This document shows, piece after piece, positions 60,245 to 63,879 of a stretch of DNA of 64,000 nt. This stretch comes from Solobacterium sp. (GTDB taxonomy: Bacteria; Bacillota_I; Bacilli_A; Erysipelotrichales; Erysipelotrichaceae), in assembly GCA_017469885.1 (NCBI GenBank), contig JAFUFO010000008.1:1-64000 (forward strand). Direction: 5' to 3'. The notes beneath the pieces were generated by a model. The model was not told where the DNA came from. It was given only the letters and a program-made list of their open reading frames with translations, and did not search any database. The position numbers and the translations under genes were made by a program. Every line of letters starts with the position of its first letter. Positions within the stretch are counted from its first letter, which is position 1.

Positions 60245-60268
60245 GCCCGATCACACATTACAGCACAG

Positions 60269-60300
60269 GAAAACGGAGTGTGTCTCCGTTTTCTTTTTTT
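60269..60300 (+). terminator. Terminator of the M48 gene
   Basis: GAAAACGGAG and CTCCGTTTTC pair around a 5-nt loop, followed by TTTTTTT. Confidence 0.9.
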
Positions 60301-60404: not shown

Positions 60405-61370
60405 ATGGCAGACAAAAAAGAACTCCCGCTCGCGATGCTCGAGCTTTTGATTCGCTACACCGACGAAGAGCATTCCCTGAGCACCAGTGAACTGAAACAG
60501 TACCTTGAACAGGAATATGATCTGACCCTGGAACGCAGGACCCTGTACGCAAATATGGACCTGCTTAAGAAATACGGGCATGACATCAGCACCTGGCAGG
60601 AAAACAGCTTCGGATACTTTCTGAAAAGCCATCAGTTCACAAAATCCGAAGTGCTGCTGTTATGCAATGCGATTCATTCCAGCCACTTCATCTCCCAGAA
60701 GGAAAGCAGTCAGCTGATCCGGAAACTGCTCTCAACACTGAGCATCTACGATCGGAAAGAATATACCGATAAAGTCTATCTGCCAAACCCGAAGAAGACG
60801 GAAAACGAGAAACTGCTCGATAATCTGTCGCTGATCAGCCAGGCTATCCGGGAGCGCAGTCCGATCCGGTTTGACTACCTGCGTCACAGGACCGACAAGA
60901 CGCTGTATTCTCCGCGGACCTATGAAGTCGAACCGCGTTATATCGTCTACCAGGACTCCCGAGCGTATCTGATCGTCACCAGCGATCACCACGAGGGATT
61001 TGCGCATTACCGCATTGACCGGATCACCGGCATTGATATCATCGAAGACCGGAAGTTCAGGGCACTTCCGAAAGAGATGGATGCCTATGAATACGCAAAG
61101 AACATGTTCTACATGTTCAATGACGAAAAGGTCCATGCCTCCCTGCGCTGTGAGAAGCGCGTCCTCGATTATATGATTGATACCTTCGGAAGCGATGTCA
61201 TGATCCTTCCGGTGGATGATGATTACTTCGACATCCATATACGCGGAAGCCGGACCGGCATCCTGCTGTTTGCCCAGCAGTACATCGATGCCGTTACGAT
61301 TCTCGAGCCCGAAGATCTGCGTAAGGAAATGAAAGAGCGGCTGAACAGAGCCGCTGACAATTACAGCTGA
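60405..61370 (+). CDS. WYL-domain transcriptional regulator, paralog 2
   Basis: The 321-residue protein begins MADKKELPLAMLELL and has the winged helix LSTSELKQYLEQEYDLTLERRTLYANMDLLKKYG. The WYL region reads RAYLIVTSDHHEGFAHYRIDRI. It is the same length as the copy at 40437 and clearly paralogous. AGAAGG lies 14 nt before the ATG. It is followed by glgA after 15 nt, so it may control glycogen storage. Confidence 0.87.
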   Translation: MADKKELPLAMLELLIRYTDEEHSLSTSELKQYLEQEYDLTLERRTLYANMDLLKKYGHDISTWQENSFGYFLKSHQFTKSEVLLLCNAIHSSHFISQKESSQLIRKLLSTLSIYDRKEYTDKVYLPNPKKTENEKLLDNLSLISQAIRERSPIRFDYLRHRTDKTLYSPRTYEVEPRYIVYQDSRAYLIVTSDHHEGFAHYRIDRITGIDIIEDRKFRALPKEMDAYEYAKNMFYMFNDEKVHASLRCEKRVLDYMIDTFGSDVMILPVDDDYFDIHIRGSRTGILLFAQQYIDAVTILEPEDLRKEMKERLNRAADNYS

Positions 61371-61385
61371 CAGGAGAACAAATCT

Positions 61386-63206
61386 ATGAAAATACTGTTT
61401 GCGACAAGCGAATGTGCACCGTTTTCCAAATCCGGAGGTCTCGCCGATGTGGCGTTCTCCCTTCCGCCCGCGCTGAAACGGGCACACAATACCACTGCGA
61501 TCATCACCCCGTATTACAAGTGCGTGAAGGACCGCTTTGCGGACCAGATCGAACTGGTAAAGGAACAGACCGTACGGCTCGGCAGTGCCGAACTGTACTG
61601 CGGCCTGTTAAAGGGAGAGCTTTCCGGTGTTCCCGTCTGGTTCATTGACAATGAAGCGCTCTTCAACCGGGATCGTCTCTATGGCTACGATGATGACAAG
61701 TTCCGGTTTGCCTGGTTTTCCAAGGCAGTCGTCGACCTCATGCAGGAACTGGATTTCATTCCGGATATCCTTCACTGCAATGACTGGGAAACTGCCCTTG
61801 CGGTCATCTATCTGAAAGATGATCAGGCAAGACGTTCCATCTACCGGAATATCCGGACGGTCTATACCATTCATAACATCGCCTACCAGGGTCAGTTCGG
61901 CGCATCCGATCTCACCACGACGTTTGCGCTCGATCCGGGATGGTATCTCGGAGGACTTGGCTATGAGTATGAAGGAAGACATGACGTCAACCTTATGAAA
62001 GGCGCGATGTTGATGGCGGATGCGGTATCCACTGTTTCTCCGACCTATGCCCGCGAGCTGCATACCCATGAATTCGGAAAAGGACTCGAAGGCGTATGCG
62101 ACATCGTCGAATCCAAGATGTACGGAATTCTCAACGGCATCGACCCGGCCCACTATGATCCGGGAACCGATCCCCGCATTCCGAAGAACTTCACTGCGGA
62201 TGAGATCTCCGGGAAGCAGAAATGCAAGGAATACCTCCAGGAAACCTTCGGCCTCCGGAAGGCAAAGAAATGGCCGCTGTTTGCGGTCGTCGCACGACTG
62301 GTCGAACAGAAAGGCGTGGAGCTGATCAGAGAAGCACTCCCGATCATGATGGAGCGCGGCATTCAACTGATCATTTTCGGTCAGGGCGATCAGAAATATG
62401 TGGATTTCTTCAATGCATGCAGGGACCGCTATGCCGGACAGTTCGGTTTCTCCGATCAGTACACCGAGGAGATGGCCGCCCGTGTATTCGCCGGTGCGGA
62501 CTTCTACCTGATGCCTTCCGCATTTGAACCGTGCGGACTCTCGCAGATGATGGCCATGCGTTACGGAACCGTTCCGATCGTTCATGAGACCGGCGGTCTC
62601 AAGGACACCGTACGTCCCTACTCTGACTTTGATGGGATCGGCGATGGATTCTCGTTTGCGGATTATACAGCGAAAGGGATGCTGCTGGCGGTGGATGAAG
62701 CAATCAAGGTCTACTTTGCGGAACGCAAGGTCTTCCGTGTCATCCGTGACCGCTGTATGCGCAAGGACTTCTCCTGGAAGAAATCCGCAGGCACCTATGT
62801 CAAAATGTATTCCGATATCTGCGGCAGCGGCTTCGATCCGAATGTCACCTTCCAGGATGCCTATGATGCGCTGAAGGTTGTCTATGAAGATCTTGAACCT
62901 GTCCGCAGTGAATATCTCGCAAAACAGCCGGATGACTACCAGAATGTGGTTCAGATTGAAATTCTCGGGCCTGGCTCCGGAACGTTCTATCTGAAGTTTA
63001 CGAAGGCAGGCATGGAAATGGCACCGTACAGTTATGAAGGCGCGGATGCCACAATCAGCGCTTCGATCGACAATCTCTACGATATGGCGATCGGCACCGC
63101 AAGCGCAGATCGGCTCTTCGTCAACGGTCAGATGAAGGTCAAAGGCAATATCTCCAAAGGTGCGGAGATGCGCTATCTCATCATGGAGCCTTCCAAAGAA
63201 GATTAA
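61386..63206 (+). CDS. glgA: Glycogen synthase with C-terminal SCP2-like domain
   Basis: The 606-residue protein has a GT5 starch/glycogen synthase region (1-490) with KSGGLADV (15-22), the THNIAYQG-like HNIAYQG stretch and FEPCGLSQMMAMRYGTVPIVHETGGLKDTV-type C-terminal motif. It would extend alpha-1,4-glucan from ADP-glucose. The usual length is about 480. The extra 110 residues (about 499-606; GADATISASIDNLYDM, VNGQMKVKG) resemble an SCP2 sterol-carrier domain. CAGGAG precedes the ATG. No other glycogen gene is adjacent. Confidence 0.93.
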   Translation: MKILFATSECAPFSKSGGLADVAFSLPPALKRAHNTTAIITPYYKCVKDRFADQIELVKEQTVRLGSAELYCGLLKGELSGVPVWFIDNEALFNRDRLYGYDDDKFRFAWFSKAVVDLMQELDFIPDILHCNDWETALAVIYLKDDQARRSIYRNIRTVYTIHNIAYQGQFGASDLTTTFALDPGWYLGGLGYEYEGRHDVNLMKGAMLMADAVSTVSPTYARELHTHEFGKGLEGVCDIVESKMYGILNGIDPAHYDPGTDPRIPKNFTADEISGKQKCKEYLQETFGLRKAKKWPLFAVVARLVEQKGVELIREALPIMMERGIQLIIFGQGDQKYVDFFNACRDRYAGQFGFSDQYTEEMAARVFAGADFYLMPSAFEPCGLSQMMAMRYGTVPIVHETGGLKDTVRPYSDFDGIGDGFSFADYTAKGMLLAVDEAIKVYFAERKVFRVIRDRCMRKDFSWKKSAGTYVKMYSDICGSGFDPNVTFQDAYDALKVVYEDLEPVRSEYLAKQPDDYQNVVQIEILGPGSGTFYLKFTKAGMEMAPYSYEGADATISASIDNLYDMAIGTASADRLFVNGQMKVKGNISKGAEMRYLIMEPSKED

Positions 63207-63220
63207 CGGATGTATGTATG

Positions 63221-63248
63221 GAAGCCGGTATTCCGGCTTCCTTTTTTT
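63221..63248 (+). terminator. Terminator of glgA
   Basis: GAAGCCGG and CCGGCTTC flank a 4-nt loop, followed by CTTTTTTT. The next gene's -10 (63250-63255) begins immediately after the T-run. Confidence 0.88.
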
Positions 63249-63261: not shown

Positions 63262-63879
63262 ATGGAATACGGAATCCGCGAACATGCGCTGTACTATGCA
63301 CTGCTCGCAAAGGCAGTGCTGGAGACAGAACATCTGCCAAACGCAGAAGAACTGCTGAAAACCATCACATCCGAATACGGAAGACGCCGCGGAAAACGCA
63401 TGCGCGCAAACGCGGAGACGCTCTGTCCCTCGGATGATCTTTCCGCATTTTTCCGCACCGGAGAATGGGCCGGAAAACCGGGTGAGAACCGGTCCGAACT
63501 GATCCGTAATCAGGACACAACCGAATCCCATGTCCATGTCTGCGCCTGGTATGACACCTGGAGACAATACGGTCTGCTTGCATATGGTACGTATTACTGC
63601 CGGTGGATCGACCCTGCGATTGCGGAAGGGTTTGACGGCAGTTTCCGCTTATCCGTTCCGCAAACCAAAGGCGCCGGAGATTCCGTCTGCCGGTTTGTCT
63701 GGAATCAGCCGGTCAGCGCTCCGGAGAGCGAGCGTCCGTTCCTTCTCCCCTTTTCGTTTCATATCGAAGAACTGCGTCATACCGCACAGGAGGTTCTGTA
63801 CAGGACCGTGCCTGAACAGGCGAAAGATATCCTGAAGCGGACCGAAGATGCGTTTCAGGAATCTGTTCAGACGTTATAG
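63262..63879 (+). CDS. ATC-hydrolase-family protein, copy 2
   Basis: The 205-residue protein has HVHVCAWYDTWRQYGLLAYGTYYCRWIDPAIAEGF, a pattern of the L-2-amino-thiazoline-4-carboxylate hydrolase family (PF14196 type). It is diverged from the copy at 51936. The activity is not established. The start ATG at 63262 begins MEYGIREHALYYALLAKAV, and there is no Shine-Dalgarno behind a -10 only 6 nt away. Confidence 0.72.
   Translation: MEYGIREHALYYALLAKAVLETEHLPNAEELLKTITSEYGRRRGKRMRANAETLCPSDDLSAFFRTGEWAGKPGENRSELIRNQDTTESHVHVCAWYDTWRQYGLLAYGTYYCRWIDPAIAEGFDGSFRLSVPQTKGAGDSVCRFVWNQPVSAPESERPFLLPFSFHIEELRHTAQEVLYRTVPEQAKDILKRTEDAFQESVQTL

Follow-up and report, generated by a model that had tools for sequence, protein, structure and literature searches.

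The 64,000-nt stretch of Solobacterium sp. DNA analysed here (the window) carries an open reading frame in which a GT5 glycogen synthase runs on into an SCP2 domain, both of them complete (Table 1), and Pfam, AlphaFold2 and Foldseek are concordant on this assignment. The same architecture is present on 80 other contigs, which rules out chance as well as an assembly or frameshift artefact. Literature searches for a glycogen synthase with an SCP2 domain, with most subscription papers outside their reach, returned nothing relevant, and SCP2 is not mentioned in the available portion of a 2024 review of prokaryotic alpha-glucan enzymes. The silence of this portion suggests that the combination has gone unnoticed, and GlgA-SCP2 is apparently a conserved domain fusion without published description.

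Table 1. Features of the GlgA-SCP2 locus (positions within the window)
Feature	Position	Strand	Basis
Terminator-like hairpin, upstream edge of the two-gene unit, 5' of the WYL gene	60267..60295	+	12-bp stem and T run; pattern match only
WYL-domain transcriptional regulator, 321 aa	60405..61370	+	PF13280, 48.6 bits; WCX weak, just under cut-off
GlgA-SCP2 fusion gene, ATG start, 606 aa plus stop	61386..63206	+	Open reading frame; architecture shared by 80 further loci
GT5 glycogen synthase catalytic part, residues 1-478	61386..62819	+	TIGR02095, E. coli GlgA 2qzs, Foldseek, catalytic residues
SCP2 domain, residues ~487-599	62844..63182	+	PF02036, AlphaFold2, Foldseek
Intrinsic terminator directly 3' of the fusion gene	63220..63241	+	GGAAGCCGGTATTCCGGCTTCC + TTTTTTT; pattern match only

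The catalytic part shares its domain, its catalytic residues and the GT-B fold with the GT5 glycogen synthases of E. coli (2QZS) and A. tumefaciens (1RZU). Pfam detects PF08323 (E 1.4e-76, residues 2-237) and PF00534 (E 1.2e-13), and the protein scores 524.8 bits against the NCBIfam model TIGR02095 (glgA, cut-off 328) and stays below cut-off for the narrower GlgA equivalogs of NCBIfam. Sequence comparison with E. coli GlgA (2qzs) gives an E-value of 9.9e-82. For the full-length model (pLDDT 85), the top Foldseek matches are the glycogen synthases of E. coli and Agrobacterium (2qzs at E 7e-44); it has a low-confidence joint at residues 481-484, so that its arrangement of the two domains relative to each other is tentative. 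All eight catalytic residues mapped from E. coli GlgA, which we take to be K15, D21, H161, N246, R300, K305, E377 and C379, are present as K15, D21, H163, N250, R304, K309, E381 and C383 and are invariant in the 36 aligned fusions. On this basis the GT5 part is very likely to be active as an ADP-glucose: alpha-1,4-glucan synthase.

An SCP2 pattern in the C-terminal part of GlgA, at about 62880-63203, had been claimed in the first-pass annotation, and the present analysis places the domain over a closely similar span. PF02036 is found in the whole protein at residues 518-595 (E 2.2e-10, 41.2 bits) and reaches 45.3 bits when the tail is scanned alone, the gathering cut-off being 21.3 bits. The tail also folds as SCP2: its AlphaFold2 model, built on an alignment of 35 sequences, has a pLDDT of 89.5 and a pTM of 0.81 and follows the canonical element order of two helices, four strands, two helices, strand and helix. 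Against the PDB, Foldseek returned 42 matches at E<=0.001 with SCP2 domains at the top; Yarrowia SCP2, Archaeoglobus SCP2, UbiJ, human SCP2 and alkylsulfatase C-terminal domains are matched at E 3e-6 to 1e-3 with moderate superposition (TM 0.48-0.63). The complete fold is common to the SCP2 family PF02036 (rabbit 1C44, human MFE-2 SCP-2L 1IKT, Yarrowia 4JGX), and so is the motif G-x-[LMI]-x-[VIL]-x-G-N. Seven tail residues (G528, G532, P547, G581, G587, N588 and K591) are invariant in 36 aligned fusions. With UbiT and UbiJ, SCP2 accessory proteins of ubiquinone synthesis, the tail has the fold in common, whereas membership of the NCBIfam UbiT family (NF047962) was rejected at a weak 27.2 bits against a cut-off of 46.9.

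Unlike other SCP2 domains, the tail is joined to a glycosyltransferase and carries a near-invariant arginine at one of the tunnel positions. In human SCP-2L, V83, A100 and Q111 mark three positions along an apolar tunnel, Q111 lying mid-tunnel (PMC10946309). Ungapped alignment to this protein maps A568 to V83, V585 to A100 and R596 to Q111. The first two are mostly small or hydrophobic, with alanine in 28 of 36 fusions at A568 and V, I, L or M in every one of the 36 at V585; R596 is arginine in 34 of the 36 and lysine in one. In our view, an arginine within the tunnel would suit an anionic amphiphile, and from the conservation of the mapped positions we lean slightly towards a lipid-type ligand.

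Tethering to the membrane or allosteric control by the SCP2 module, both raised in the first-pass annotation, are possible. A sensor, in which the glycogen synthase is turned on or off when a fatty acid, acyl-CoA or similar ligand binds, would agree with a ligand-binding fold joined to the committed enzyme of a storage polymer, with the near-invariant arginine at the mid-tunnel position and with the short linker (low pLDDT at 481-484) that ties SCP2 to the GT-B core. However, the usual control point of bacterial glycogen synthesis is GlgC, and nothing in the low-confidence linker points to a fixed contact between the domains; we regard such a switch as unlikely. A membrane or surface location is in turn countered by the absence of any hydrophobic anchor or signal accompanying the SCP2 domain.

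The module could also be a protein-protein part, serving oligomerisation or docking to other glycogen enzymes with lipid beside the point. SCP2-fold domains can act mainly as scaffold or oligomerisation parts, which counts against a ligand, and a precedent is the role proposed for SCP2 proteins as scaffolds of enzyme complexes. UbiJ, part of the Ubi metabolon (PMC9499169), ranks with alkylsulfatase C-terminal domains among the top Foldseek matches of the tail, and the Lys/Ala-rich tails that recur in this group, on free SCP2 proteins as well as on GlgA and GlgB, hint at a common assembly. Against this stand the two mostly apolar tunnel positions across 36 fusions and the completeness of the SCP2 domain, which is free of degradation, so that we consider a purely protein-binding role rather unlikely.

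The search for the same fusion in other genomes, proposed in the first-pass annotation, was productive. A scan of GTDB genome contigs gave 558 stretches encoding GlgA relatives, the best 80 of which (59-98% identity) all run through the SCP2 domain. Their hosts are mostly rumen and gut MAGs of Erysipelotrichaceae ('Solobacterium'), Lachnospiraceae, Oscillospiraceae and other Clostridia. One fusion lies on the 501-kb contig CADATZ010000001.1 (locus L065) of a MAG labelled Chloroflexi, either a cross-phylum transfer or a mislabelled bin. Counting strong SCP2 hits that sit on open frames of ~600 aa, with a check against GlgA matches, we find the fusion in 28 of 245 genomes of the order sample, spread over 4 of 73 genera; within the genus of the window it occurs in 14 of ~50 sampled genomes. 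The phylum sample (1 of 344 genomes) and the class sample around a clostridial carrier (1 of 291) contain no carrier beyond the window's genome and that clostridial genome, respectively. The fusion is thus patchy and confined to certain lineages, and since this patchiness extends into its own genus, it is dispensable.

A GT5-domain tree built by maximum likelihood places 41 fusions from Erysipelotrichaceae, Lachnospiraceae and Oscillospiraceae on one side of a branch with support 100/100, apart from 22 other GlgA proteins, some of them on long branches. This topology indicates one origin of the GlgA-SCP2 fusion. The Erysipelotrichaceae fusions are nested within clostridial diversity in this tree; depending on its root, a transfer from Clostridia would fit. 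Comparison of the window with L005, one of its two closest relatives, gives, at a dS close to saturation, dN/dS values of ~0.04 (catalytic part) and ~0.06 (tail), which indicate that both parts are under purifying selection. The gene might be a spare copy of an ordinary glycogen synthase, its tail neutral in function, in keeping with its patchy, stand-alone occurrence and with the normal GlgA that carriers retain. Selection on the tail and the retention of SCP2 in all of the best 80 homologues, across several families, argue against neutrality and make it very improbable.

The fusion is a stand-alone paralogue of GlgA. Other GlgA proteins, among them the second GlgA of Solobacterium sp. itself, have no SCP2 tail, and the fusion differs from them by this extra C-terminal module and by lying, as a second copy, away from the glg cluster. 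The idea that it replaces the normal GlgA was rejected, because carriers nearly always have another GlgA. At least two GT5 matches, some of the extra ones being fragments, were found in 27 of the 28 carriers of the order sample (the exception, G240, is 82% complete), and a further GlgA is encoded in 30 of the 31 genomes behind the fetched loci, the exception being a 0.9-Mb assembly. The stand-alone status also explains why glgB, glgC and glgP are missing next to the fusion gene, as noted earlier: none lies within the window, and the ordinary glg cluster is located elsewhere. In the Solobacterium sp. genome, glgC, glgD and the ordinary glgA are clustered on contig C23 with glgB and glgP nearby; a second glgB is found on C32 and a second glgP on C25. 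Within the genus, at least two GlgB proteins are encoded by 14 of 14 carriers versus 17 of 36 non-carriers (Fisher p 0.0003, ignoring kinship). As a general rule, a duplicated GlgB as obligate partner was rejected, with none in the 14 carriers of the other three genera. Duplication of GlgP had no clear link to carriage of the fusion.

The WYL gene had been placed 15 nt upstream of glgA, and the intergenic gap (61371-61385) agrees with this. With this short distance and a terminator-like hairpin on either side, the two genes probably form one transcript in Solobacterium sp. Elsewhere a WYL gene lies directly upstream of the fusion in the two closest relatives (L004 and L005) and in no other locus, and WYL was rejected as a fixed or general part of the system. 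A WYL homologue of 46-48% identity is located within ~3 kb downstream of the fusion at L030 and L042. Across the loci no conserved operon with the fusion gene was found, including one with lipid genes; the neighbours vary by lineage and comprise housekeeping genes. The gene that follows the fusion in the window (63262-63879) encodes a PF14196 protein (L-2-amino-thiazoline-4-carboxylic acid hydrolase, 69.9 bits), which among the loci recurs in L004 alone.

The reading we prefer, at slightly below even chance, is that of an auxiliary ADP-glucose glucan synthase whose SCP2 module positions or tunes glucan synthesis via a hydrophobic ligand or surface. The GT5 domain would elongate alpha-1,4-glucan from ADP-glucose in the normal way, alongside the housekeeping GlgA and from a shared ADP-glucose pool. 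The C-terminal module, as kin to free clostridial SCP2 proteins, would bind an amphipathic ligand or a hydrophobic surface and might thereby position part of glucan synthesis, e.g. at the inner membrane or the surface of the glycogen granule; alternatively, binding would adjust glucan synthesis to lipid status. That positioning is its main consequence is a tentative suggestion, which we hold with somewhat less conviction.

The fused module is related to free-standing SCP2 proteins of Clostridia (e.g. L111, L113 and L116; L085 in the window's genus). It starts with VTFQDAYDALK as the free proteins start with MTYQEIYTKVK (VTFxD versus MTYxE), and hhalign aligns it with the profile of the free proteins at a probability of 99.5. 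In contrast to the fusion, the free proteins are unfused, have a second helical region shorter by ~10 residues and often carry a Lys/Ala-rich tail. The fused tail is the sole SCP2 domain detected in the Solobacterium sp. genome, and no genome of the order sample, a small one with 28 fused and one free SCP2 (G187, L085), has both forms. The free SCP2 genes at L111 (1498-2001), L114 (1510-2073) and L116 (1474-2001), from three clostridial genomes, all encode Lys/Ala-tailed proteins and lie directly downstream of a putative pyruvate kinase gene, as judged by eye.

Lys/Ala-rich stretches were detected by a composition scan in 12 of ~1,100 non-overlapping ORFs at the fetched loci, which are related to one another and were picked because they hold glgA or SCP2, in some cases for a long open frame. 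All 12 are glycogen enzymes (the fusion L083, other GlgA proteins at L090-L093 and L107, the second GlgB at L118) or free SCP2 proteins (L111, L113-L116); neighbour genes are not among them. The fusion protein of the window has no such tail. The second GlgB of Solobacterium sp. (L118 1138-3372, C32:13770-16004) bears an N-terminal Lys/Ala-rich, histone-H1-like extension of ~110 residues, and similar, often shorter Lys-rich N-termini are found on GlgB at L127, L129, L130, L131 and L133; L129, L131 and L133 are from non-carriers of the fusion. Long Lys/Ala-rich tails are N-terminal in the third GlgA paralogues at L090, L091, L092 and L093 and C-terminal in the clostridial GlgA proteins at L095, L107 and L108. 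Similar tails on PhaF and AlgP position PHA and polyphosphate granules (PMC9239181). By analogy, some rumen and gut Firmicutes might possess a system of glycogen-granule-organising proteins comparable with phasins and AlgP, in which SCP2 modules, fused or free, and histone-H1-like Lys/Ala-rich tails on GlgA, GlgB and SCP2 proteins would attach glycogen enzymes to membrane, nucleoid or a polyanion; this is a speculative proposal and unlikely to hold as a whole.

The occurrence of one fusion in at least 80 genomes suggests a tie, in the carriers, between glycogen synthesis and a hydrophobic ligand or surface. The fusion offers a concrete handle on whether bacterial glycogen synthesis is organised in space or coupled to lipid. 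By Rosetta-stone logic, the otherwise unexplained free SCP2 proteins of Clostridia gain a candidate role in glycogen metabolism.
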